Of a stretch of DNA of 64,000 bases, positions 4,498 to 61,543 are shown in pieces. This stretch comes from Ancylobacter sp. IITR112. GTDB lineage: Bacteria; Pseudomonadota; Alphaproteobacteria; Rhizobiales; Xanthobacteraceae. The first letter of the stretch is position 1. Every line of letters begins with the position of its first letter. The position numbers and the translations under genes were made by a program. The stretch covers positions 1,798,001-1,862,000 of the forward strand of contig NZ_JBGCUS010000001.1 of the NCBI RefSeq assembly GCF_041415945.1. The letters run 5' to 3'. The notes below the pieces were generated by a model, which ran no database searches, had not been told where the DNA came from, and saw nothing but the letters and a program-made list of their open reading frames with translations.

Positions 4498-6201
4498 TCA
4501 TACCGTGATGACGAGCACATGGCAGAGCGGCTTCTTGCCCCAGGCGGCGTTGATCTGGGCGCGCACTGCGCGCGTCACCGATTCCGCGACCGCGTCCGGG
4601 TCGCGCCGGCGCGGCTTGGGCAGGCCGTCGAGGCAGTTCAGCACCGCGTCTTCCACCACCTCGTCGAGCGGCGTGCCGCCAATACCGAGGCGCGGCAGGC
4701 CGGACAGGTCGATCATGGGATCGCCGACCACCTCGCCCTTGGACGACATGGCGATGGCGACCGACACCAGCCCGCTGAAGGAGAGCCGCCGCCGCTCGGA
4801 GATCGCCGGGTCCTCGGCGCCGACCAGCACCTGCCCGTCCTTGTAGAGCCGGCCAGACGGAATCTCCTCGATCACCTCGGCACCAAGCGCGGGGTCGGCG
4901 CTGATCAGGCGCACCACATCGCCATCCACCAGCCGGATCACCTCGCGCACGCCCATGCGGCGGGCGAGCTCGGCATGTTCGGACAGATGCAGCGGCTCGC
5001 CATGCACCGGCACCGCCACCTGCGGGCGCAGCCACTGGTACATCTGCTCCAATTCGCCCCGGCGCGGATGGCCGGAGACATGCACCAGCCCGTCGCGGTC
5101 GGTGATGACCTTGATGCCCTGCAGCACCAGAGCGTTGATGATGCGGTTCACCGCCCGCTCATTGCCGGGAATGGTGCGGGAGGAGAAGATGACATGGTCG
5201 CCCGGCGACAGGGCGATGTCGGGATGGTCGTCATCGGCGATGCGCGCCAGCGCCGCGCGCGGCTCGCCCTGGCTGCCGGTGAGGATAGCGACCACCTTGT
5301 CGCGCGGCAGGAAGCCATAGGCGTCGACGGGACGGAAGGGCGGCAGGCCGTCGAGCATGTGCTGCTCGCGCGCCACGCCGATCACCCGCTCCATCGCCCG
5401 CCCGACAAGCACCACCTCGCGCCCCGCCTTCACCGCCGCCTCGGCGATGGAGCGGATGCGCGCCACATTGGAGGCGAAGGTCGTCACCGCGACACGGTGC
5501 GGCGCGGCGGCGATCAACTCGCCGAGTGCGGCCTGCACATCCACTTCCGAGGGCGAAATGCCGTCGCGGATGGCGTTGGTGGAATCGCAGATGATCGCCC
5601 GCACGCCCTCATCGCCCAGCGCGGTGAAGCGCGCGGGATCGGTGACGTTGCCGACCACGGGGGTCGGGTCGATCTTCCAGTCGCCCGTATGCACCACCAG
5701 CCCGAGCGGGGTGCGGATGGCGAGCGAATGGCTGTCGGGAATCGAATGCGCGACCGGCACGAATTCCACGTCGAACGGACCAATCCGGGTCCGCCCGCCG
5801 GTCGGCACGATGTGGAAGGGAATCTTCGGCGCACCCGGCTCACCCAGGCGCCGCGCCTCCGCCAGCGCATGGGTGAAGGGCGTGGTGTAGACCGTGCAGC
5901 CAAGGCGCGGCCACAGATCCACCAGCGCGCCGATATGGTCCTCGTGCCCGTGGGTGATGACGAGGCCGGCGAGGTTGCCGGCATCCGCCTCACGTTCCAG
6001 AAAGCCGACATCAGGCATGATCAGGTCGATACCCGGCACCTCCGGCGGGGCGAAGGAAATGCCGAGATCGACCGCGAGCCATTTGCGCCGGTTGCGTGGC
6101 CCCAGACCGTACAGCCCGAGATTCATCCCGATCTCGCCCACCCCTCCGAGAGGGGCGAAGACCAGTTCGTCCGGCCACTTGCTCACATTCCTGCCTTTCA
6201 C
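4498..6201 (-). CDS. rnj: Ribonuclease J
   Basis: This metallo-beta-lactamase/beta-CASP ribonuclease has endonuclease and 5'-3' exonuclease activity and acts in rRNA and mRNA processing in the cytosol. The zinc-binding motif HGHEDH is at residues 84-89. Further metal ligands are in VAHSIPDS and HTGDWKID, and the beta-CASP part contains SGHPRRGELEQM and VPVHGEP. The C-terminal domain is present, and 567 residues is normal for alphaproteobacterial RNase J. The GTG at 6201 overlaps the birA stop codon by four bases. A second in-frame GTG five codons later has a better-placed AGGA, so the exact start is uncertain. Confidence 0.95.
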   Translation of the reverse strand: MKGRNVSKWPDELVFAPLGGVGEIGMNLGLYGLGPRNRRKWLAVDLGISFAPPEVPGIDLIMPDVGFLEREADAGNLAGLVITHGHEDHIGALVDLWPRLGCTVYTTPFTHALAEARRLGEPGAPKIPFHIVPTGGRTRIGPFDVEFVPVAHSIPDSHSLAIRTPLGLVVHTGDWKIDPTPVVGNVTDPARFTALGDEGVRAIICDSTNAIRDGISPSEVDVQAALGELIAAAPHRVAVTTFASNVARIRSIAEAAVKAGREVVLVGRAMERVIGVAREQHMLDGLPPFRPVDAYGFLPRDKVVAILTGSQGEPRAALARIADDDHPDIALSPGDHVIFSSRTIPGNERAVNRIINALVLQGIKVITDRDGLVHVSGHPRRGELEQMYQWLRPQVAVPVHGEPLHLSEHAELARRMGVREVIRLVDGDVVRLISADPALGAEVIEEIPSGRLYKDGQVLVGAEDPAISERRRLSFSGLVSVAIAMSSKGEVVGDPMIDLSGLPRLGIGGTPLDEVVEDAVLNCLDGLPKPRRRDPDAVAESVTRAVRAQINAAWGKKPLCHVLVITV

Positions 6202-6953
6202 CCTGACGCGGCGGGCGTGGGAAACACGTCGCCGGCGCTGATCGTCTCGCGCACGCCGTCATGGCGGCGCAGAACCATGGCACCTGAAGAATCCAGTGCC
6301 TCGAATACTCCCGCAACCTCCCGGCTGCCAAGTCGCGCCGTCATCGCCTTGCCGAGCCCGCTGGCCCGGCTCAGCCACGCTTCACGGATATGACCGAAGC
6401 CTGCCCCCCCGGCCCATTCCGCCAGCCGCGCACGCATCGCCGCATCCAGCGCCGCGAGCAGCGCCGGGGGATCGGTGGGATAGCCTGCGGCGGCGAGATC
6501 CGTGGTGGGATAGGGCGTGTCGGCGGGGTGGTGGGCGCAGTTGACGCCGAAGCCGATCACCGTCGCCGCCCACCCACCCGGCACCGCCGCGCCTTCCAGC
6601 AGGATGCCGGCGAGCTTGGCGCCGTCGATCATCACATCATTCGGCCATTTGAGGCTGATGCGCAGCGGATCAATGCCGGTGACCGCCCGCACCGCGTCGT
6701 ACAGCGCCAGGGCGGCGACAAAGCAGAGTTCGGGCTGGTGCGCCGGCGAACCCGCATCCCTCAGCAGCAGCGAGGCATAGAGATTGCCGGGTTCCGACAC
6801 CCAGGGCCGACCGCGCCGGCCGCGCCCCCCGGTCTGCCGCGCCGCGACGAACCAGCAAGGCGCCGCGCCGCCCGTCCGGGCCAGCGCGGCTTCATTGGTG
6901 GAACCGACGGTGTCGAAGCGAACGACCGGCGTCGCGACCGGCGTGAGCGCCAT
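6198..6953 (-). CDS. birA: Biotin-[acetyl-CoA-carboxylase] ligase
   Basis: The enzyme activates biotin as biotinyl-AMP and attaches it to the carboxyl carrier protein of biotin-dependent carboxylases. The biotin-binding GRGRRGRPW (43-51) and the catalytic KWPNDV (102-107) with KLAGIL (113-118) are clear. At 251 residues there is no N-terminal winged-helix domain, so it is the monofunctional ligase and not a repressor. It starts two bases after nuoN and overlaps RNase J, giving the conserved alphaproteobacterial string nuoN-birA-rnj. Confidence 0.95.
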   Translation of the reverse strand: MALTPVATPVVRFDTVGSTNEAALARTGGAAPCWFVAARQTGGRGRRGRPWVSEPGNLYASLLLRDAGSPAHQPELCFVAALALYDAVRAVTGIDPLRISLKWPNDVMIDGAKLAGILLEGAAVPGGWAATVIGFGVNCAHHPADTPYPTTDLAAAGYPTDPPALLAALDAAMRARLAEWAGGAGFGHIREAWLSRASGLGKAMTARLGSREVAGVFEALDSSGAMVLRRHDGVRETISAGDVFPTPAASG

Positions 6954-6955
6954 CC

Positions 6956-8383
6956 TCAGAAAAGCGCCCGTGCCGCCGCCCCGGCCGCCGCGATCAGCGG
7001 CGCGGGATACACAAAGAACAGCAGGGTGAAGGCGCCGGAAATGGCCAGCACCACCCGCGGCTCCGAGCGCATCGGTTCGAAGGGCGCCGCCGGCTCGTCG
7101 AAATACATGATCTTGACGATGCGCAGATAGTAGAAGGCGCCGACCACGCTGGTGAGAACGCCGATCACCGCCAGACCGTACAGCCCGGCCTCGATCGCCG
7201 CCAGGAACACATAGTATTTCGCGAGGAAGCCGGCGAGCGGCGGAATGCCGGCGAGCGAGAACATCAGCACCGCCAGCATGAACGCCTTCACCGGGCTGGT
7301 ATGGGCGAGGCCGGCGAGTTCGTCATAGGTCTCGACCATGCCGTCCTTGCGCCGCATGGAGAGGATGCAGGCGAAGGTGCCGAGCGTCATGACGAGATAG
7401 ATCGCCATATAGACCAGCACGCCCTGCACGCCCTGCGCCGTGCCGGCGGCAAGGCCGACCAGCGCGAAGCCCATATGGCCGATGGAGGAATAGGCCATCA
7501 GCCGCTTGAAGTTGCGCTGGCCGATGGCGGCGAAGGAGCCGAGCGCCATGGAGGCGATGGAGACGAAGACGACGATCTGCTGCCACTGATGCACCACATT
7601 GGGCAGTGCTTCCATGGCGAAGCGCACGAACACCGCCATGGCCGCGACCTTCGGCGCCGAGGCGAAGAAGGCGGTGACCGGGGCCGGAGCGCCCTCATAG
7701 ACATCCGGCGTCCACATGTGGAACGGCACCGCCGAGACCTTGAAGCACAGGCCGGCGAAGGTGAACACGATGCCGAAGATCAGGCCGAGCGAGGGCTCGC
7801 GCGCCGCCTCGGCGATCTGGGCGAAATTCACCGAGCCGGTGAAGCCATAGATCAGCGAGGCGCCATAGAGCAGCATGCCGGAGGACAGCGCGCCGAGGAC
7901 GAAATATTTCAGGCCGGCCTCGGTGGAGCGCACGGAATCGCGGTTATTGGCCGCGATCACATACAGCGCCAGACTCATCAGTTCGAGGCCCATATAGAGC
8001 GCGATGAGATCGCCGGCCGAGATCAGCACCATCATGCCGAGGGTCGAGAGCAGGACCAGGACCGGATATTCGAAGCGGTCCTGCTTCTCGGTCTTCAGCC
8101 AGTCCACCGACATGGCCAGCGTCCCGCCGGCGCCGACCAGCGCCAGCACCTTCATGAAGCGGCCAAAGGCATCGACCTGGAAGGCACCGTGGAACAGCGT
8201 CGCCTCGCCGGGGCCGATCAGCACCAGCACCAGCGCGCCGAACAGCGCGGCGAGCGCCAGCCCGTTCACCGTGTCGGTCGATTTCGGCCCGGCATAGGCG
8301 CCGAGCATCAGCAGCGCCAGGGCGGAGAGCGCCAGCAGCAATTCGGGCAGCGCGGGGCCGAGCGCGGCGAGGGAGAGGGTCAT
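6956..8383 (-). CDS. nuoN: NADH-quinone oxidoreductase subunit N
   Basis: This antiporter-like membrane subunit of complex I (475 residues, about 14 helices) forms one of the proton channels. The family signature [20 protein letters not shown] is present, with the helix-7 lysine region and the broken-helix segment after it. The start [15 protein letters not shown] matches the family. An upstream in-frame start would add 30 residues without hydrophobic character and was not used. It is the last nuo gene, 31 bases after nuoM. Confidence 0.97.
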
Positions 8384-48852: not shown

Positions 48853-50298
48853 TCAGGAAGTCGCGCACTTCAGCTTGCGGATGGCCTCGGCCAGTACGAC
48901 CTTGCCGCCGACACGGCGGCGGAAGATGAAGCGGATCGCGCCGCTGGTCGCCTGGGTATAGGGATCGCGCAGCATCTCCATGGCGATGCGGTCCACCATG
49001 GTGTAGCCGCGACGGAAGTCGCCATAGGCGATCGGATAGGTGCCGGCGCCCTCGGACGGCATGTCCGGGAACTCGACATAGGGATCGCCGTCGATCGTAT
49101 TCGGGCGGCCCTGCGCGATGCCGGGCATCCAGATGTAATTGTTCTCGCCGTCCTTCAGCTTGCGAACCGAGCCCATGGTGGTGCGGTTCATGATCCAGGT
49201 CGCATTGCGCGCATAGGCCGTCTTCAGCCCATACTTGAGCGTCAGCAGCCCGTTCGCCTGCCCCGTGCCATCGGCGATGGTCGCCGCCGAGCCGGAGACA
49301 TTCTCGCCAACGCCAGCGTTGACCAGGATGCCTTCCATTTCGCCGACACCGGTGCCGGACACAAACTCCGCGCCTTCCTTGACCGCGAACTGCTCGGCCG
49401 CTTCCTCGCGGATCTCCGCCTCCATGTCGAACGCGGTGTCCTCGAGCATCTGATTGGTGATGTCGATGAGCGCGTACATCTCCGGAGCCTGGAGTTCCTC
49501 CAGCCCATAGGCGAGGCCGGTGGTCTCGGACTTCGGACCCGTTTCATGGGTGCGGCGAGCCGCAAACTGACCGGTCCGCTTCGGGATCTGGATCGACTTC
49601 GAAGCGGTATTGCGAATGCGCGCCAGCGCCCGGGCCGGGCTGAGTTCAGTGACGCCCTTGATGATCTCGCGAACATATTCCGTCGGGGCGAGATAGCCGC
49701 CAGCGGTGTCGGTGCCGACGTTCAGGGCCTTCGCTTCGGCGGCGATGTCCGACAGCACCTTCTGCTCTTCCTTCGACAGGTTCACGACGCCAACCGCGTT
49801 CGCCTGAACGACGGCGTGGGCCCAGTCATTGGCGACGGTCTTCCAGCCATCCTCGCCATGCGCGCCGGGCTGGAGGTTCTTCGGCAGGCGGCTGAGCATC
49901 ACCTCGATGCGGTCCGACGCCTCCTTGGCTGCCTTCGCCTGATCAGTCGCCGTGGTGATCTGCTGGTTCAGGCCTTCATACTGCTGGAGGGTCTGCTCGA
50001 TCTTGCCGAGTTTTTCGACAGTGACCGGGTCGGCAACGCCCTTCTTTTCCAGTTGGGCGAGCCGCTCGTCATTCGTCTTCTTGAACTCGTCGAAGGCCGA
50101 CATGAGCGGCGTGACGGCTGCCTTCACTTCATCGGCGAGGGCCGGAGCCGCCGCCGAGGCGATCAGAAGGTGGTTGACGTCGAAATTGGACATGGCGGCG
50201 TGGATCAGGCCGACATGCGGAACTGTGTCCAGCGCGAACGAGAGAACGGCAGCGAGCGCAAGCGCGCCCACCACCGCCAGGATGGTGAACTTCTTCAT
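48853..50298 (-). CDS. Major capsid protein, HK97 fold, with N-terminal extension
   Basis: This 481-residue protein is the head subunit. Residues 55-175 form a delta-like helical scaffold (ADEVKAAVTPLMSAFDEFKK, LEKKGVADPVTVEKLGKIEQ). The shell part begins near KALNVGTDTAGGYLAPTEYV and contains MEGILVNAG, NRTTMGSVRKLKDG and DFRRGYTMVDRIAMEMLRDP, all typical of HK97 capsids. Before the delta domain the protein starts MKKFTILAVVGALALAAVLS, a sequence that looks like a signal or membrane segment and is unusual for a capsid. It would probably be removed by the adjacent protease with the delta part. Confidence 0.9.
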   Translation of the reverse strand: MKKFTILAVVGALALAAVLSFALDTVPHVGLIHAAMSNFDVNHLLIASAAAPALADEVKAAVTPLMSAFDEFKKTNDERLAQLEKKGVADPVTVEKLGKIEQTLQQYEGLNQQITTATDQAKAAKEASDRIEVMLSRLPKNLQPGAHGEDGWKTVANDWAHAVVQANAVGVVNLSKEEQKVLSDIAAEAKALNVGTDTAGGYLAPTEYVREIIKGVTELSPARALARIRNTASKSIQIPKRTGQFAARRTHETGPKSETTGLAYGLEELQAPEMYALIDITNQMLEDTAFDMEAEIREEAAEQFAVKEGAEFVSGTGVGEMEGILVNAGVGENVSGSAATIADGTGQANGLLTLKYGLKTAYARNATWIMNRTTMGSVRKLKDGENNYIWMPGIAQGRPNTIDGDPYVEFPDMPSEGAGTYPIAYGDFRRGYTMVDRIAMEMLRDPYTQATSGAIRFIFRRRVGGKVVLAEAIRKLKCATS

Positions 50299-50322: not shown

Positions 50323-51045
50323 TCAGTTGCCCCGGATGCGTTTCACAGCGTCCTCGACGAACGCTTTGAGGGCTTCTCCGTCCTCATCCCGAGGTTCCGG
50401 TCGTGCCTTGAATCCGCCGGCGGCGATCGCCTTGGCGGCCGAATGCGAGAAGTCGCCTACATCCCGCAGGAACTCCTCGAAATCCCGAATGGTCTTGATC
50501 TGATCAGCGAAGCTCTCGCCATCGTCTCCCGCCATCTTGGCGCTGTAGACGCGCGCCAGCACGTTCGACGGATCATCTACCAGCGACACTTCCCGCAGGA
50601 GTGCCGACTTGATGTAGCGCAGCGGTTCGCCTGCCCGGCCCGAGCCTTTGCGAGAACCCGACGGCGGCACCCGATAGCCGATCGACAGGCCCTTCAGAGC
50701 ACCTTCGCGCAACTGCGCATATGTCCACTTGCCCTGCTCGGTATCGAGCCCGACCAGCCTGCCCTTGACGTGCAGTCCGTTGGCATCTTCGGACATAGCC
50801 TCCCAGACGCCGATTGGCTCCTGCCGATTGCCGGTCATGGCGCCGTGCATCTTGTACATCGGCGGCAGGCTGCGGCCCGACCGTTCGCGGTCCAGCAGCG
50901 ACTTGGCAAAAGCGCCCGGCTCGATCACGTCGCCATGGCTGTCGATGTTGCCGAAGACGGCGCCATAGCCCTCGAAGCTGCCGACGGGCGCTTCGTCGGA
51001 CGCAAACTTGATCTCGAAGGGAACGCCGACCAGGCCGAGCTCCAT
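50323..51045 (-). CDS. HK97-family prohead protease
   Basis: This 240-residue serine protease matures the prohead by cutting the capsid delta domain. The family pattern FEGYGAVFGNIDSHGDVIEPGAF is at residues 24-46. The presumed catalytic His is in MYKMHG (H67) and the Ser in LKGLSIGYRV (S121). It starts ten bases after the portal gene, which is the normal portal-protease-capsid order. An upstream in-frame extension overlaps the portal gene and was not used. Confidence 0.88.
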   Translation of the reverse strand: MELGLVGVPFEIKFASDEAPVGSFEGYGAVFGNIDSHGDVIEPGAFAKSLLDRERSGRSLPPMYKMHGAMTGNRQEPIGVWEAMSEDANGLHVKGRLVGLDTEQGKWTYAQLREGALKGLSIGYRVPPSGSRKGSGRAGEPLRYIKSALLREVSLVDDPSNVLARVYSAKMAGDDGESFADQIKTIRDFEEFLRDVGDFSHSAAKAIAAGGFKARPEPRDEDGEALKAFVEDAVKRIRGN

Positions 51046-51055
51046 GATGGTCTCC

Positions 51056-52774
51056 TCACGGGTCAAGTTCTTCGAAGCGTTCAGGGCCAAAGACGAGCTT
51101 GCCCTGGTACGCCTCGACAGATGACAGATCGACGCCCGAAGCGTCATAAGTGATAGTGATGTGGGGCTGGAAATCGGGCTGGTCGTGGGTAGCGCCAGCT
51201 TCGATGATCTGCTCGTGCCGCCATTCCAGTTCCGCCGACACGAATTTGAGCGCCACCGCAGCGCCGCGCGCAGAACTCATTGCCTCGACGAGCCTCGGCC
51301 CGCCGGGCGGGATGATGATCTCGCCATTGTCGTTCGGGTTCCAGCTGCGCTGGATGGACATCCAGTCGATTGCAACCTTGCTGTAGACCAGCGTGACGTG
51401 AAGGTCTTCCGCCGCCACGGTGCTCTTGAATCCCTGAGATCGCGCCCAGCGGATGAATTCCGCCCCGTTCTTCAAGGAGCGGCTCACATAAAGCGAGCGC
51501 GGCGTGCTGGACTTCATTTCCGGCTTCGCGGGGGGCGCGGCCTCGGCATTCACAGGTGCCATCGTCGCCGGCTGCCAGACCTGATCCATGTCAGGATCCT
51601 CGTCCGGGTTCCAACCGTCATCCTCGCGCACTTCGTTCGGCCTCAGCCACCCGGGCGACGAATTGGTGCCGAGGGCAGCCTTGTAATACTCGGTGCGAGC
51701 CTGGAGCGAACCGCGGAGTAGCTCGCTCGTGTCGACCCGGGAGAAATAGCCCTCGCGGCGCTCGTCCCGCGTCAACAGCTGCGCGTCGATCGCCGCCGTC
51801 ATGTTCTTGATCCACGGCTGCAGCGTGTAGCGCACATGCGCTTCGAGGAAGGCGTCGGCGCTGGCGAAGGTCGGCGACTGGTCGCCGGCATGCCCCAGCA
51901 TGATGGGAAAGACGCCAAGGAATCGTGCGATCTCCTCGATCTGATGCTTCCGGGTCGCGAGATGCTCGGCATCCACGCCTGACATGCGGAGCTGCGCCCA
52001 TTTGAGCCCGCCTGTCAGCACCGCTGGCTTGGACGAATTTTCCGTGCCGGCGTAGGCCTGCGTCCACTGTTCGCGCAGCACTTCAAGCTGCGCCTTGTCG
52101 AACTTCTGCTCGGTCGAGAGGACACCGCTGGGTCGCGCGCCGTTCTTGTGCAGCCGCGCATGCGTCTCTTCCGTCACCTGCGACAGGCCGATGGCCTCCC
52201 GTCCTACCAGCGCAGGGTCAATGCCCTTGTGAAGCTGCCAGCTCGGGCCGCGCAGGTGGAACACGTCTTTTGCGCGCAGGCGGACGAAGGTCCCCTTCTC
52301 GAAAGTGCAGTCATAGGTGATCTCGCTCAGGAAAGGGTCGAGATCAATGGTGACGTTCTCGGGCCGGAACGGCAGCAGCTCCTTAAGCTGGCCGTTCACC
52401 TCCACCCGGTAGGATACCGAATTTCCGGCCCCCACCGCGTGCATCATGATCGTGCGAAAGAAGGTCGGGGCGTCCTGTATTCCGCTCGCCTGGTACCGCA
52501 GCATGTCATAGAGCGGGTGGTCGGTAGCCGGCTCGGCGCCGCGCCCGTTGGGCAGGCGTCGATAGAGTTCGACCGGCAGCTGCGCCACGCCATCGGCGAT
52601 GACCAGCACGCCGCGATAGAAGGCCGACTGACCAAGCGCCGAGCTGAACGACACGTCCGCGCCCGATTTGGTCGGTACGCCCCACCCGCCGTTGATTGCC
52701 GCCCACACCTCGGGGGAGAAATCAACCGACTTCGTCTCGTCGCCTCGCAGCAGAGACCGCAGGATGCCGCTCAC
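51056..52774 (-). CDS. Portal protein fused to a C-terminal 2H phosphoesterase (Acb1-like) domain
   Basis: This protein of 572 residues is longer than the usual 380-430 for this portal type. Residues 1-410 are an HK97-type portal (QSAFYRGVLVIADGVAQLPV, RKHQIEEIARFLGVFPIMLG, DAFLEAHVRYTLQPWIK), which forms the DNA entry ring at the head vertex. After a Pro/Ala linker, residues 427-570 form a second domain starting SLYVSRSLKNGAEFIRWARS. It carries two HxT motifs, LHVTLVYS (H459, T461) and PHITITYD (H538, T540), 79 residues apart. This is the 2H phosphoesterase layout of Acb1, the phage enzyme that degrades CBASS cyclic nucleotides. Start is GTG, overlapping the preceding small gene. Confidence 0.85.
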   Translation of the reverse strand: MSGILRSLLRGDETKSVDFSPEVWAAINGGWGVPTKSGADVSFSSALGQSAFYRGVLVIADGVAQLPVELYRRLPNGRGAEPATDHPLYDMLRYQASGIQDAPTFFRTIMMHAVGAGNSVSYRVEVNGQLKELLPFRPENVTIDLDPFLSEITYDCTFEKGTFVRLRAKDVFHLRGPSWQLHKGIDPALVGREAIGLSQVTEETHARLHKNGARPSGVLSTEQKFDKAQLEVLREQWTQAYAGTENSSKPAVLTGGLKWAQLRMSGVDAEHLATRKHQIEEIARFLGVFPIMLGHAGDQSPTFASADAFLEAHVRYTLQPWIKNMTAAIDAQLLTRDERREGYFSRVDTSELLRGSLQARTEYYKAALGTNSSPGWLRPNEVREDDGWNPDEDPDMDQVWQPATMAPVNAEAAPPAKPEMKSSTPRSLYVSRSLKNGAEFIRWARSQGFKSTVAAEDLHVTLVYSKVAIDWMSIQRSWNPNDNGEIIIPPGGPRLVEAMSSARGAAVALKFVSAELEWRHEQIIEAGATHDQPDFQPHITITYDASGVDLSSVEAYQGKLVFGPERFEELDP

Positions 52775-52927: not shown

Positions 52928-54468
52928 TCACAGGAGCCAGATTTCAGGCAACCGATCGTCCGACCGGAGATCGCTGGCAGCCGCGCCGACCGCCATCGCT
53001 ATGGTGACCATGCCGTCAATGCGGCCGCGCGAGCGCTTCTTGTCGAAGGCGCGGTTTTTCATGCCGTCAGCGAGCACATGAGCATTTGCCGCGCAGGAAT
53101 AGGTAACCGGTGAGGAGTCGATAACGATCGACCTGTCGAGAATCCTGTCTTCAAGACGCTCGATGGAGCGTGGCATGCACAAGCGTTCGACAGGCTTACC
53201 CTGATCGTCCAGCTTCTTATAGAAGAGCACCTTGGTTCCCTGCCCGTGCGGTACGAGCATTAGTCCGGTGCCATGATCACCGTCTGGCCCCTCGAACAGC
53301 CAGACAGGGAAACCGATTTCCTCGCATGCCGCCATGAAGTCCCCGATGCCTGCGGGGTCGAACACCAAGCATCGCACATCATGATTCGCGAAGAGCTCAG
53401 CAACAAAGGCCGCAACGAAGGTCTTATCGATCACGGCACCTTCTACCGCGGTGAGATGGCCTTCAATCACCCACCGGCTGTAAGGGGCCTGATCAGCCCT
53501 CTCGCGCTGTTCGAGACCGCTCTTCGATGTCCAATACCAAGTCTTGGCGAGGAGCTCGTCATCCTTCAGCCAGACAGCCGTGAGTGACGTAAGGTCATTC
53601 TTCTGCGAAAGGTCGAGAGAGAGCCAGCATGGGCAGCCCTTGAGTTCCTCCGGCTCCACCTTCCCCTGAACTGCCGACCAAGCTTCCTCGGCGATCCAGA
53701 ACTCTGTCGCGCCAATAGGGATGCCAAAGTAGAGGCGCTTCAGAGACAATGCCGTCGACAGCATCGATTTAGCGGTCTTCACCTGACCGCGGATATTCTC
53801 GATTGGGAACGTCACCCCCAGCGCCGGCAGGGCCTTTGGCCAGCAGTCCTCATTGTCGAATACCGTGTCTCGATCAGCTTTGTCGACGCGCGCCACGAAG
53901 GCAAAAGCCTCGTCGTCATCAACTTCGCCCAGGGCGACCTTCTGATAGAACTCTGAATATTCCGTGCCGACGATCTGCGATGACGATGGCGTGTTGGTAC
54001 CCAGCAGCATCAAAGCGTCACCAGGCATCTTGGCGATAGCGGCCTTCCAGATCTCGATCGACGTGTTGCTCTTGAACTCGTGGATTTCGTCCGCGGCGAC
54101 CAAGGTTGGCTTTGGACCAGAGATGGCTTCACCGTTCGCCAGCGACTGGAAGATGGATTCGCTTTCGGGGAACTCCAGCTTCCAAGCGTTATCGCCCTCG
54201 CCGCGGACGACGACATGGCCGTTCGCAACGAGGGTGTCGTCATCCTCTCCACCGGGGATCTTGGCCCGGCACATCGCCACCGCATCCTTGAACAGCACGT
54301 TCGCGGTGTTCTTGTCTTGGCCGATGGCGAAGGCCCGAGCGCGCTTAATGCCATAGAAGCCGGTCATGTAGAGCCCGGTGGCTGCCATGAACGGGCTTTT
54401 CGCCTGGCCCTTTCCAGTCTCCAGCCAGCCGCTGCGAAACCGCATCCGGCCGCTGTCCTTGCGCCAGC
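52928..54468 (-). pseudogene. Large terminase, C-terminal part (gene split by an insertion sequence)
   Basis: This is the larger part of a TerL gene, the ATPase and nuclease that packages phage DNA. The Walker-A-like WLETGKGQAKSP lies just after the break, followed by Walker B VAADEIHE and the coupling motif LLGTNTP. The nuclease part has SLDLSQKNDLTSLTAVW and VFDPAGIGDFMAA, then the last acidic site in RIDGMVTIAMA. Removing the insertion and one copy of the 4-bp duplication joins it in frame to the piece at 55668-55978, giving a normal 615-residue TerL (AGSLFGWRKDSGRMRFRSGW at the junction). The C-terminal piece alone lacks a proper start and the first 100 or so residues. Confidence 0.9.
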
Positions 54469-54494
54469 TGACGTTGCCCCCTGAATGCCCTCGT

Positions 54495-55316
54495 TCATAA
54501 CCAGAATCCGTTCTGGTTGTGGTCCTGCCTGGACCGGGCTGCGAACTCGTTTGGGGTAAGGCCGCCGAGGCTCGTGTGAGGCCGGTGGCCGTTGTAGTCG
54601 ATCCGCCAAGCTTCGATGATCCGACGTGCCATCGGCAAGCCCTGGAACAGGTGCTCGTTCAGACATTCGTCGCGGAAGCGGCCGTTCAGGCTCTCGACGA
54701 AGGCGTTCTGAACCGGCTTGCCGGGAGCGATGTAGTGCCACTCGACACCTGTGTCCTGCTGCCAACGCAGGACCGCGTGCGAGGTCAGTTCGGTGCCGTT
54801 GTCGCTGACGACCATGAGCGGCTTGCCACGACGTTGGATGATGGCGTCCAGCTCCCGTACGACCCGGTGGCTCGACAGCGACGTGTCGGCCACGAGCGCC
54901 AGGCACTCCCGGGTGAAGTCGTCGACGATCACCAGCACGCGGAACCGGCGTCCGTCCGCGAGCACATCGGAGACGAAGTCCAGGCTCCATCGCTGGTTGG
55001 GTGCCTGCGGCAAGGTCATCGGCGCTCGCGTGCCAAGCGCTCGCTTGCGTCCGCCGCGACGGCGCACCGACAGCCGCTCCTCGCGGTAGAGCCTGAAGAG
55101 CTTCTTGTGGTTGATCTCCTTGCCCTCTCGCCGAAGCAGGATCAGCAGACGCCGATAGCCGAACCGCCGACGCAAGCTCGCCAGCTCACGAAGGCGCTGG
55201 CGGAGCGCGGTATCGTCGCCTCGCGTCGAGGCGTAGCGATAGGTCTTCGGCTCGATGCCGATGAGGCCGCACGCACGCCGCTGCGAGTAGCCCTTCTCCT
55301 CGATCGCCCAGGTCAC
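54495..55316 (-). CDS. IS3-family transposase OrfB (DDE integrase core)
   Basis: This 273-residue catalytic half of the transposase has an HTH-like start ([20 protein letters not shown]). The DDE triad is in SLDFVSDVL (first Asp), [10 protein letters not shown] (second Asp) and [14 protein letters not shown] (Glu). The fusion product with OrfA, made by -1 frameshift, is expected to be the active enzyme. The last codons overlap a small palindrome AACCAGAATCCGTTCTGGTT close to the element end. Confidence 0.93.
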
Positions 55317-55339
55317 GACCTTCCTCCGGGAACTGGGCG

Positions 55340-55606
55340 TCAGAAGTTTTTTCCAAGAGCCTCGCGGAGAGTGGCTACGTCGAGCATCGACTCGGCCAGA
55401 AGCTTCTTCAGCTTCCGGTTTTCCTCCTCGAGCGCCTTAAGGTTGCGGGCGTCGGACACCTCCATCCCGCCGTACTTCGTGCGCCACGTGTAGAAGGTCG
55501 CGTCGCTGATCCCGTGCTTCCGGCAGAGGTCCACGACCGGGATTCCGGCCTGGTGCTCCTTCAGGATCCCGATGATCTGTTCCTCGCTGAACCGGCTCTT
55601 GCGCAT
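55340..55606 (-). CDS. IS3-family transposase OrfA
   Basis: This 88-residue N-terminal DNA-binding part has a helix-turn-helix ([36 protein letters not shown]) followed by a leucine-zipper-like segment ([18 protein letters not shown]). Near the 3' end GGA AAA AAC TTC TGA contains the slippery heptamer A AAA AAC (55346-55352). The -1 frame from there runs into OrfB without a stop. Confidence 0.93.
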
Positions 55607-55667
55607 CGTCCGTCTCCTCTCGACGGATCCTAGCTTCTGAGCGGGGTCATTTCAGGGGGCAACGTCA

Positions 55668-55978
55668 CAGCCGAAGAGAGAACCGGCAACGAATGTGTGC
55701 CATGGCAGGAGGTTGAAAGGTTCACCCTCCTTTGCCCCTTCGGTGATAGTCAACATCGCCGGGTAGAAGCCGAGAGCATGGGCGGCCTTCTCTGGACGCC
55801 AGTGAAGCCCTCTCGCCGGCCCGTCTCTCAGATCACGAAGGTGACGCTCGGCGGCGTGGCGAACCAACTCACCCGAGACGATACGGCCTTCGACCACCTC
55901 GCATGCCCACCGGCTGGTGGGATCATTTGGAAAGCGAGCCGAGGTAGCTGTCCGCGGCGCGCGGGGCTTTCTTGCCAC
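55668..55978 (-). pseudogene. Large terminase, N-terminal part
   Basis: This is the first 100 or so residues of TerL. The best start is the GTG at 55978 with AAGG eight bases upstream, giving MARKPRAPRTATSARFPNDP, the usual start of TerL paired with P27-type small subunits. It continues with the WACEVVEGRIV and ERHLRDL pattern and LLPWHTFVAGSLFG, where the insertion sequence breaks it. Translation now runs into the element and stops after five foreign codons at 55652. The gene overlaps the small-terminase gene by 56 bases. Confidence 0.88.
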
Positions 55979-56360
55979 GTTGCACCTTCCCGGCCTTGCC
56001 GCGTCGAACCGGCGCAATGCCGAGTTCAGCCTCGAGCACTCGAATGTGCTCGTCGGCCTGGCGCATGATCGTCCAATACGGACTGACCTGCGGAACTCTG
56101 GTTCGACGGGCTTTGAGGATGGTTCCGTGCTCGGCGATCTGGCGAGCGGCACGACGGTATTCGACATAAAACTCCACGAGACGCTGCATCGCATGGCCGT
56201 TCACCATCGCTAGCGTCGCCGCATCTTTCATCTCGCGCTCAAGGATGCCCCAACGCTCATGGGCCTCTGCGATGTCGAGCTCATCGGCGAACTGAGAGCT
56301 CCAATCGGGCTCGGGCGGAACGCCCTCACCTCCTCCCAGAGAGGTAAGTGTCATGTTCAC
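55923..56360 (-). CDS. Terminase small subunit, P27 family
   Basis: This 145-residue protein recognises phage DNA and hands it to TerL. It has the P27-type pattern EAHERWGILEREMKDAATLA, followed by VEFYVEYRRAARQIAEHGTI and the ARRTRVPQVSPYWTIMRQAD segment, then a basic C-terminus (RRGKAGKVQRGKK). The reading frame is intact. It is the first of the packaging genes, 114 bases after the HNH gene. Confidence 0.88.
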   Translation of the reverse strand: MNMTLTSLGGGEGVPPEPDWSSQFADELDIAEAHERWGILEREMKDAATLAMVNGHAMQRLVEFYVEYRRAARQIAEHGTILKARRTRVPQVSPYWTIMRQADEHIRVLEAELGIAPVRRGKAGKVQRGKKAPRAADSYLGSLSK

Positions 56361-57773: not shown

Positions 57774-57850
57774 TGGTTGCAGGGGCGGGATTCGAACCCG
57801 CGACCTCTTGGTTATGAGCCAAGCGAGCTACCTGACTGCTCTACCCTACG
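57774..57850 (-). tRNA. tRNA-Met (CAT), initiator type, with encoded CCA
   Basis: This 77-base tRNA has acceptor strands CGTAGGG and CCCTGCA, D stem GAGC/GCTC, anticodon arm CTTGG-CTCATAA-CCAAG, T arm GCGGG-TTCGAAT-CCCGC, A73 and a genomic CCA. Position 1 is C and 72 is A, an unpaired end that marks initiator tRNA in bacteria, and the D stem has A11-U24 as in initiators. The anticodon stem has G-C at 30-40 and 31-39 but U-A at 29-41 in place of the third G-C pair. It lies in the prophage control region, not at an attachment site. Confidence 0.92.
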
Positions 57851-59243: not shown

Positions 59244-60260
59244 TCACCCACCGGCCGCCTGCTGCTGGCGATCCGGCCCGTCTCGGCTAGGAGGCCACTC
59301 GCTGGGCATGTACCGGCCGGTCACAGCCTTAGGGCGTCCGGCGAACGGACGGGCGGGATAGCCGATGGCGCGCAGCGGCAACTGCGCTTCTTCGGCCACG
59401 GAAGCCCATGCCGCCCACTGCGGCGAGCCCAGCTCGACCATCACGCCGCCGCTGAAGTTCGTCCCCAGCGCCTTCCGCAGGGCCTGCACGGCCTCACTTT
59501 CAGGCGCCCTCGGCTTGGGCCGGCCGGGGAAGTTCTTGAACGTGCCGCGCAGATAGGCCGACGGGTCGCTCATCTTGCGCCGCTCCTTGGCGCAGATGGC
59601 CCGATAGGCCGGGATCGCGGCGACAGCGGCCTTGCGCTCGTCCTCGGTCAGCTTGAGCCACTGGCGATAGCCGCGGTGCCTCGGCCAGGCTTGCGAGGGC
59701 CCGTACTCGGCGAGGAAGGCGAGATAGGCCGGATCGGCTTCCCATCCTCTTTCCGTTGACGAAGTCCCCTCATCCACCGCCCCCTTGGGGGCTATGGGGG
59801 TTCTTTTTTTAGAATCCGTATTTGTTTCTTCTATATGCACAGCCTGAAAAGCCGCGCGCGGCAAACACGGTTGTGGATGGTGCTCAGGTGTGCCGTGAGC
59901 CACAACCGGATTTTCAGGCTGTGGCTCACCAGCGGAGGAGACGTCTTCGACACCATCCGTTGTGTCGGTCGGTTCGTCGTACACCACATAGTCCATGCCA
60001 TTGAAGGCACGGGTGACCGGGTCGCGCGTGCGTTCCCGCTTTATCCACCCTGCGGAAACGAGCTCGGCGACAACCCGCTGGGTCTTGTCCCGGCCGATCT
60101 TGAAGCGCTCCGATAGGTGCGAAAGCTCGACATTCCAATCGGCAGGCCGGGACCTGAGATAGCAAAGAACGCCCATCGCCTCGGCCGACAGCCGGTTATC
60201 GTCGAGCACGGCGTTGGGCAGAACCGTGAAGTTGCGATTGTAGCGGCGGCGGATGATCAA
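59244..60260 (-). CDS. Winged-helix replication protein (O-like)
   Basis: This 338-residue protein has an N-terminal winged helix: NFTVLPNAVLDDNRLSAEAM, then LSHLSERFKIGRDKTQRVVA and ELVSAGWIKRERTRD. The middle is a long variable linker. The C-terminal part has a helical domain (LAFLAEYGPSQAWPRHRGYR, AYLRGTFKNFP) common in phage replication initiators. It probably binds the phage origin. Its ATG overlaps the preceding gene by four bases. Confidence 0.75.
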   Translation of the reverse strand: MIIRRRYNRNFTVLPNAVLDDNRLSAEAMGVLCYLRSRPADWNVELSHLSERFKIGRDKTQRVVAELVSAGWIKRERTRDPVTRAFNGMDYVVYDEPTDTTDGVEDVSSAGEPQPENPVVAHGTPEHHPQPCLPRAAFQAVHIEETNTDSKKRTPIAPKGAVDEGTSSTERGWEADPAYLAFLAEYGPSQAWPRHRGYRQWLKLTEDERKAAVAAIPAYRAICAKERRKMSDPSAYLRGTFKNFPGRPKPRAPESEAVQALRKALGTNFSGGVMVELGSPQWAAWASVAEEAQLPLRAIGYPARPFAGRPKAVTGRYMPSEWPPSRDGPDRQQQAAGG

Positions 60261-61543
60261 AGCCCGCCTCCAAGATCGTCACTGGAGAAGAGCAGCGGCT
60301 GCACCGTGCCGTCGGCGAAGACGCGGTCGAGCGGCTGATCTGCCACCGGCTCGCTGCCATCCCACCCGTCGGGCCAGGTCCCGGCGACGATCAGCTCGCG
60401 GATGCGTGCTTCCTCTTCGGCATTAAGAAGGTCGATCTTCGGGCGGCCGAGCCGACGGGCGGCCTCGTTGATTTCCGCCTGGATGGACAGCACACGGCTA
60501 AGCCCCATGCGCCGGGCCTCGAAAGTCAGCGGGCCCATGCGCTGTGGGTTGGCCGCAATGGACCCATCCTTCAGTCGTTCCACGCCTTCCTTGCGGAGGC
60601 GGTTAGCCGGCTGACGCAATTCCCGATAGAGCGGCTTGAGCCGCTGAAGCGGGGCGAGGTAGCCCCAAAGCGGCTGCGCCACGATGCTATCGAGGGCCGT
60701 GTCCTTGCTCGCCAGTGGGCAACCGGCGCAGCCGGTCCGCGCATTGATCTCCTCCGCCTCGTCACCGCCATAGGCATCGGCGATGGCGGCGGTAGACCAG
60801 CCGCCATATTCCGCCATCGGGGCATAGATGCGCAGCCAGTCCCAGACATTGCACACCCGCCAATGGAGGATCGGCGCCAGCGTAGCGATCCGGCCGCGAA
60901 TGCCCTTCGCCTCCGGCAGGACCTGCTGATACCAGCCCTGTCCGCACTCGGCGCCGTCCTTGCCGCAGCTCATGCGGATCCTCTGGTCCCGAATCGCACT
61001 CTCGCCTTGGCGAACGCCTGTGATCATCAGTGCGCTGCCGCCGATTTCGTCGAGCCGGGCCGCGAGGGCCTGCTGCATGGGCTCGACCTTGATCTGTCGA
61101 GTACACCAGCGCAGCGTGTTGTTGTTCGGCGGGGGAACGCCCCGGCCCAGAATGTAGATGAGGAATCGCTTGTCGAGCGGGGCGCGGACGACCTCGCAAC
61201 GGACGCCGCGCACCGCGAGCTGCTCCATGATCCGGCGAGCCGCCAAATAGAGAGGTAGCAACTCCATGCGGGTGTCGGCGTAGAAGATCGTCAACGTCTT
61301 CGGGGGGGCAATCCGCCCAGCATCGATCAGATGTGCGATCACGGTGAGCGTCGCAGTGCTATCCTTCCCTCCCGACCACGCGATAGCCCAATGCTCATGT
61401 TCGGGGCCGTAGGCCTGCATCGATCTGATCGTTAGATCGACCGCGTCGTCATAGGCCAGCCTCGCCGAACCCTCGAAAAGGGTCGGTTGTGTGCTGCCGG
61501 TGCTTTTGATTGCCGGAGGAGAGGCGAGGGAAAAGTCGCTCAC
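60257..61543 (-). CDS. DndC/PAPS-reductase-like PP-loop protein
   Basis: This 428-residue ATP-pyrophosphatase of the phosphoadenosine-phosphosulfate reductase superfamily has the PP-loop SGGKDST at residues 57-63. A PPPNNNTLRWCTRQIKVEPM segment (137-156) and LMITGVRQGESAIRDQR (172-188) closely follow the pattern of DndC/SspD, the enzyme that activates DNA for phosphorothioation. Cys residues at 147, 193, 200, 231, 272 and 275 could ligate an iron-sulfur cluster (CAGCPLAS). No dndB, dndD or dndE gene is in the window. The start is a GTG overlapping the preceding gene. Confidence 0.8.
   Translation of the reverse strand: MSDFSLASPPAIKSTGSTQPTLFEGSARLAYDDAVDLTIRSMQAYGPEHEHWAIAWSGGKDSTATLTVIAHLIDAGRIAPPKTLTIFYADTRMELLPLYLAARRIMEQLAVRGVRCEVVRAPLDKRFLIYILGRGVPPPNNNTLRWCTRQIKVEPMQQALAARLDEIGGSALMITGVRQGESAIRDQRIRMSCGKDGAECGQGWYQQVLPEAKGIRGRIATLAPILHWRVCNVWDWLRIYAPMAEYGGWSTAAIADAYGGDEAEEINARTGCAGCPLASKDTALDSIVAQPLWGYLAPLQRLKPLYRELRQPANRLRKEGVERLKDGSIAANPQRMGPLTFEARRMGLSRVLSIQAEINEAARRLGRPKIDLLNAEEEARIRELIVAGTWPDGWDGSEPVADQPLDRVFADGTVQPLLFSSDDLGGGL

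Follow-up and report, generated by a model that had tools for sequence, protein, structure and literature searches.

Why would a phage portal protein end in a relative of Acb1, the enzyme with which phage T4 destroys the signals of the cyclic-oligonucleotide-based antiphage signalling system (CBASS)? The question is raised by a prophage region in a 64,000-nucleotide stretch of the Ancylobacter sp. IITR112 genome (contig NZ_JBGCUS010000001.1, positions 1,798,001 to 1,862,000), referred to here as the window. One of its genes encodes an HK97-family portal protein with a C-terminal Acb1-family domain. Close relatives of the portal may have or lack this domain, yet its active site stays nearly unchanged. 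We lean, with some reserve, towards an active, metal-independent cyclic-nucleotide phosphodiesterase that erases an alarm signal, of CBASS or a related system, late in infection and together with the portal, mainly during head assembly.

The portal protein and its C-terminal domain

The open reading frame (ORF) encodes an HK97-family core (residues 50-384), followed by a linker and the Acb1-family domain.

51056..52774, minus strand: portal protein ORF, 572 amino acids, GTG start (PF04860, 3e-77; TIGR01537)
51503..51595, minus strand: linker, residues ~394-424 (predicted local distance difference test, pLDDT, <50 at 414-421)
51059..51502, minus strand: Acb1-family 2H phosphoesterase domain, residues 425-572
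51392..51400, minus strand: first HxT motif, H459 V460 T461 (equivalent to T4 Acb1 H44/T46)
51155..51163, minus strand: second HxT motif, H538 I539 T540 (equivalent to T4 Acb1 H113/T115)

The protein scores above cut-off with both PF04860 and TIGR01537 (portal_HK97; 200.3 bits, cut-off 112.05) and is predicted to have the portal fold, as expected of an HK97-family portal. The Pfam Acb1 profile (PF23474) matched the whole protein with an E-value of 4.5e-39 (133.9 bits, cut-off 27) and the isolated domain piece with 138.5 bits. On sequence grounds, this match is the decisive evidence for the identity of the domain, which also has the HxT/HxT tetrad and a predicted Acb1 fold. The motif pair alone is only suggestive, since shuffling the C-terminal 148 residues 20,000 times produced paired HxT/S motifs 60-95 residues apart in 379 cases (~2%).

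A preliminary description of this DNA had named H459, T461, H538 and T540 as two HxT motifs, the mark of 2H phosphoesterases, and all four were found at those positions. It had let the gene end at 52487, which falls inside the true ORF (51056-52774); its residue numbers fit the 572-residue protein. The flexible linker that it saw ahead of the domain was recovered as a stretch rich in proline and alanine, as judged by eye, with low pLDDT in its second half, and the end of most domain-free portals falls within this stretch. Two of the refuting conditions that it had set itself, a better match to RNA ligase or RNA phosphodiesterase families and a fold unlike Acb1, did not overturn its Acb1 reading: Acb1 is far ahead of those families, and the predicted fold is that of Acb1. 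On the domain piece, 2_5_RNA_ligase2 scored 29.6 bits (cut-off 27), LigT_PEase 18.2 bits (below its cut-off of 23.3), and TIGR02258, for RNA 2',3'-cyclic phosphodiesterases, 17.8 bits (13.2 on the whole protein; cut-off 65.7). The PHROGs label for the domain family is RNA ligase. The PADLOC defence-protein library gave no match to the portal, and none of 1586 phage records covered at least 80% of the whole window protein.

Comparison with the active site of T4 and FBB1 Acb1

Residue roles were taken from Hobbs et al. 2022 (PMC9117128), where W74, F107 and the lid residue W147 contact bases in T4/FBB1 Acb1. T4 positions were mapped onto the portals by sequence alignment (n = 205), the match at W74 being alignment-dependent; the alignment holds 77 HK97, 95 DUF1073 (PF06381) and 12 DUF935 (PF06074) portals, the protein P0013, two DUF2213 proteins, 12 short proteins and six references. 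Equivalents of H44 and T46 are kept throughout four carrier groups (77/77 HK97, 95/95 DUF1073, 12/12 DUF935 and 2/2 DUF2213). H113 is kept in all four except for one incomplete HK97 row, and T115 except for HK97 rows with serine (four) or isoleucine (one) and that incomplete row; the Pam3 portal domain likewise has serine here. In alignment A1, H459, T461 and H538 are invariant and T540 nearly so.

The Y12 equivalent is kept in the window domain, and this position holds tyrosine in 75 HK97 portals and phenylalanine in two. At the W74, F107 and lid W147 positions, the window protein has E497, Q532 and no residue, respectively, and it thus misses three of the four aromatic base-stacking positions of T4/FBB1 (Y12, W74, F107 and W147). 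The change at W74 is general, with glutamate in 76/76 HK97 portals and glutamate or aspartate in 95/95 DUF1073 portals. The usual residues at the F107 position are W, H, Y and F; glutamine occurs in one of 77 HK97 portals, the window protein itself, and its 97% identical relative P0002 has histidine. The lid tryptophan is found in 20/77 HK97, 80/95 DUF1073 and 12/12 DUF935 portals (a looser count of tail tryptophans gave 22/77 for HK97, two of them misparses: one incomplete row and one longer protein). The window protein ends in FEELDP, after which comes the protease ATG at 51045. The adenine-contacting E141 position is variable among portals and aligns with E568 in the window protein. With the tetrad kept and the W74, F107 and lid positions changed, the alignment indicates that the catalytic chemistry is retained in the window domain and that base recognition as known from T4/FBB1 is not.

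Distribution of the domain

The domain search produced 446 candidates, of which 171 were scored and the best 120 examined further. Its length filter admitted proteins of 0.55-1.75 times the 572 residues of the portal, and stand-alone relatives are absent from it for this reason; a second search for short relatives retained 12 of 56 candidates. Among the best 120 of the 171 relatives, 117 are portals of three Pfam families, two are predicted head-maturation proteases and one is another phage protein; by Pfam label, there are 95 PF06381 (two also PF04860), 12 Mu-type PF06074, 10 PF04860, two DUF2213 (PF09979) and P0013. The two DUF2213 proteins, P0098 and P0107, carry Acb1 at the N-terminus, and their remainder matches phrog_530, which bears the name head maturation protease, at ~1e-103. 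P0013 (623 amino acids) is not a portal: Acb1 lies at residues 75-224, followed by a C-terminal match to phrog_1530, which bears the name DNA methyltransferase, and preceded by a sub-threshold ChaB match at its start. The protein of locus L025 (positions 5971-7371; 467 amino acids, the same in L026) has Acb1 near its N-terminus and, like P0013, a C-terminal phrog_1530 match; its match to the XkdF-like protease PF14550 was 17.4 bits, below the cut-off of 24. It lies near a head morphogenesis gene. Roseobacter phage DSS3P8 gp129 (L003, 3989-4441), annotated as a prohead protease, was considered as a further protease fusion and rejected because its 150 residues align to Acb1 along their whole length. 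Portals of 755-757 residues (P0192, P0195, P0197; L109 and L127, 3947-6214) extend ~170 residues beyond Acb1, and P0192 and P0197 have sub-threshold matches to the PBECR3 nuclease (18.3 and 22.1 bits, cut-off 30).

In viral metagenomes, a scan of IMG/VR matched at least 600 stretches, at least 592 of which encode a relative of the domain, and 80 loci were kept. Searched with our own profiles, 88 Acb1-bearing ORFs in loci L008-L106 were assigned to DUF1073 (70), DUF935 (seven), HK97 (six) or nowhere (five). The domain matched 1344 phage records, 202 of them over more than 80% of the domain in one place, and many of the top rows are annotated as portal or head proteins. Over-cut-off Acb1 matches in prokaryote genomes were found in 6/397 genomes of the order, 2/385 of the class and 2/398 of the phylum (the samples overlap); at E <0.001 these counts are eight, five and four. 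The eight distinct over-cut-off genomes carry the domain on portals in six cases (two HK97, four DUF1073) and in frames of 146-147 amino acids in two.

Gain and loss among portals

The domain is an optional tail module, gained and lost at the seam between the portal and prohead protease genes. The best 120 of 1339 portal relatives, together with the window protein, gave 121 sequences, from which P0238 (831 amino acids, additional Pfam domains) was left out of the portal-core tree (n = 120). On this tree, 77 close HK97-type portals have the domain and 43 are without it, although some of the latter rows may be incomplete (P0186 ends within the linker). At least 23 changes in domain presence are needed, 18 of them forced by well-supported branches. 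Presence is also clustered, since shuffled labels required a mean of 35.3 changes and none of 500 shuffles as few as 23. A Mantel test of co-inheritance of domain and core gave r 0.523 (n = 76), a value that none of 1000 permutations reached; it does not separate gain by transfer from loss.

The Mesorhizobium portals P0149, with the domain, and P0144, without it, are almost identical, P0144 being compared as protein. In loci L131-L133, which encode close portals without the domain, the protease gene is 69-77% identical to that of the window and begins 5 bases past the portal stop or overlaps it; a tblastn search with the domain against these loci gave a best E-value of 0.14.

The ratio of nonsynonymous to synonymous substitution rates (dN/dS) ranged from 0.10 to 0.42 in the domain and from 0.08 to 0.41 in the core (25 of 91 pairs), figures that are rough because many dS values are near or above 1. 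The first domain tree places the window protein among domains of PF06381 portals. Two separate acquisitions by HK97 portals were considered and rejected: the likelihood was higher when all HK97 domains were constrained to one group (approximately unbiased test, p-AU 0.916). In both domain trees P0013 is labelled DUF1073 by default, despite not being a portal, and the carrier-change counts of the first tree were not used.

Prophage neighbourhood

The portal gene lies between genes for head formation and a disrupted large terminase gene (terL).

48853..50298, minus strand: major capsid protein (PF05065, 1.1e-71)
50323..51045, minus strand: prohead protease, Peptidase_S78 (PF04586, 3.2e-20); likely ATG at 51045, 10 bases past the portal stop
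52928..54445, minus strand: large terminase, C-terminal piece (PF20441, 4.3e-26; phrog_9)
54469..55667, minus strand: insertion sequence within terL, with 17-bp perfect terminal inverted repeats and gctg at both flanks
55652..56194, minus strand: large terminase, N-terminal piece (phrog_10517, 9.2e-20); the ORF enters the insertion sequence end

The likely protease start is at the same residue in relatives from loci L107 and L131-L133. The insertion sequence has 11 full copies in the host genome, this one included, at 100% identity. Because it splits terL, the prophage is probably unable to package DNA. No integrase was found among nine ORFs tried beyond the window edge. The prophage region also has a tRNA-Met (cat) gene (57774-57850, minus strand), located upstream of the terminase, and 60257-61543 encodes a 428-residue phosphoadenosine phosphosulfate reductase-like protein (phrog_12882, 1.8e-235), which also matches DndC models (2e-28).

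Function and alternative explanations

In the explanation we favour, the domain would be produced late in infection as part of the portal and, as a metal-independent phosphodiesterase, would cleave a cyclic nucleotide, removing the alarm signal of CBASS or a related system. Its main place of action would be the infected cell during head building, where portals newly made or still in assembly would carry it; copies shut inside the head would be incidental or kept in reserve. Twelve portal subunits form a ring at one vertex, the site of head assembly, with their C-terminal parts facing the head interior. Action at head assembly is proposed because this 12-mer sits where heads assemble, and is favoured because the domain is fused to late-made proteins concentrated at the assembling head. 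The analysis itself shows the homology and the catalytic residues, the fold as predicted, which proteins carry the domain, and its gain and loss; catalysis, substrate, timing and place of action we infer. The role of the domain is probably anti-CBASS.

Several points weigh against this explanation. The published evidence is mixed on whether head assembly triggers CBASS: an interaction between a prohead protease and a CBASS sensor is reported (PMC12409349, citing another study), whereas in staphylococci an RNA from the terminase genes is the trigger, the cyclase was not activated by capsid genes on their own, and mutants of the scaffold escape at a stage later than signal production (PMC10686824). 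Three base-contacting positions are changed in the window protein, one of them in no other of the 77 HK97 portals. In the closest DNA pair, dN/dS is 0.23 for the domain and 0.083 for the core, so that the domain evolves faster there, under weaker constraint. With terL split, the copy in the window may be idle. The host genome has no match to SMODS or AGS_C, the two cyclase families searched, and SMODS is found in none of eight Acb1-bearing genomes (the host and seven others) compared with 46/397 in the order (38 over cut-off); because about one would be expected in eight genomes, this small sample of low power speaks neither for nor against a CBASS link. Of the preliminary description, the portal with an Acb1-family 2H domain stands (PF23474, 133.9 bits); its further step to an anti-CBASS role on the substrates of T4 Acb1 found no such support, given the E, Q and missing residue at the W74, F107 and W147 positions and a host without SMODS or AGS_C.

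These same observations could point to a similar enzyme whose true target is another nucleotide signal, such as cyclic triadenylate (cA3) of some type III clustered regularly interspaced short palindromic repeats (CRISPR) systems or a novel one, rather than the CBASS signals of T4 Acb1. The acidic residue at W74 throughout HK97 and DUF1073 portals, the scarcity of the lid in HK97 portals, the variable E141 position and a host without SMODS or AGS_C matches are in its favour. Against it, nine further Acb1 proteins are all reported to cleave 3'3'-cyclic GMP-AMP (cGAMP) and cAAA (Hobbs et al., PMC9117128), and the position mapping is by sequence alignment. We consider this target unlikely. A broader scenario is about as doubtful: phages would repeatedly have fused a signal-erasing phosphodiesterase to the portal and head-maturation protease, concentrating the eraser at the place and time at which head assembly lays them open to nucleotide-signalling immunity, with the mostly lid-less HK97 branch shifted to another, novel signal.

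Less likely again is an effector that travels with the virion head into the cell infected next. Such delivery has been put forward for fusions of 2H domains with MuF or portal (PMC9503650), and Acb1 was detected in vibrio phage particles (PMC12028318). The domain would, however, need to be cut free, since the portal remains in the particle after ejection. An RNA enzyme, either an RNA 2',3'-cyclic phosphodiesterase for repair or a Usb1-like RNase, would fit the shared superfamily, the above-cut-off 2_5_RNA_ligase2 score and the PHROGs name; an RNase role has been judged compatible with the portal and MuF fusions (Iyer et al. 2017, PMC5512222), and a survey of jumbo phages calls phage 2H enzymes specialists for 2',3'-cyclic phosphates (PMC7824862). 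Against the Acb1 score and the failure of LigT_PEase and TIGR02258 to reach their cut-offs, it is improbable. Slightly more so is a non-catalytic structural tail, or a domain in decay within a prophage that is itself defective, as the split terL, the unique Q532 and the absent lid might suggest: the tetrad is kept nearly everywhere while the remainder drifts, and the portal does not need the domain, since 43/120 close portals manage without it.

Relation to known proteins and significance

The window domain resembles Acb1 of T4 and FBB1 (PF23474; PDB 7t26, 7t27) in predicted fold, the HxT/HxT tetrad and equivalents of Y12 and E141, and differs in its fusion to a portal, the changed W74 and F107 positions and the loss of the lid tryptophan. 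A C-terminal Acb1 domain is also present on the portal of cyanophage Pam3 (PDB 8hds, by sequence; domain 37% identical) and on that of Rhizobium phage RHEph05, but both belong to Phage_portal_3 (PF06381, formerly DUF1073), whose listed carriers mostly retain the lid tryptophan. The best 50 entries of the structure comparison do not include the Pam3 portal, which is uninformative on its domain. Poxvirus and other LigT-like cGAMP phosphodiesterases share a LigT-like fold and the reaction (PMC11410667), but are proteins of eukaryotic viruses.

Neither the fusion nor the idea of counter-signalling is new, both having been proposed in 2017 and 2022, and some of these fused proteins are already named Acb1 in databases. 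Fusions of 2H domains with MuF or portal domains, an architecture similar in outline, were described by Iyer et al. 2017 (PMC5512222), with breakdown of the host's nucleotide signals offered as one option. The 2022 survey of nicotinamide adenine dinucleotide and ADP-ribose (NAD/ADPr) systems (PMC9503650) suggested that such fusions are packaged and injected against SMODS, cyclic-mononucleotide and CRISPR signals, and gave other phage 2H domains a role in tRNA repair. The available text of these two reports contains neither a residue-level, gain/loss or HK97-branch analysis nor any protease fusion. For vibrio phage 6E351A, Acb1 was described in particles with no mention of a fusion in the passages available (PMC12028318), and no portal fusion is named in those of PMC11249213, PMC9382816, PMC11780129, PMC12487901 and PMC12064943. 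Within the open-licence literature examined, no paper brings DUF1073 and Acb1 together, and the gain/loss pattern, the head-protease fusions and the mostly lid-less HK97 branch were not found; these three are the additions made here.

An active domain would mean that a machine of the virion incorporates an anti-defence enzyme, and one that is common in viral metagenomes (at least 592 of at least 600 IMG/VR matches). The protease fusions tie it to a protein class already linked in print to CBASS sensing, and with close portals that have and lack the domain, its role is directly testable.
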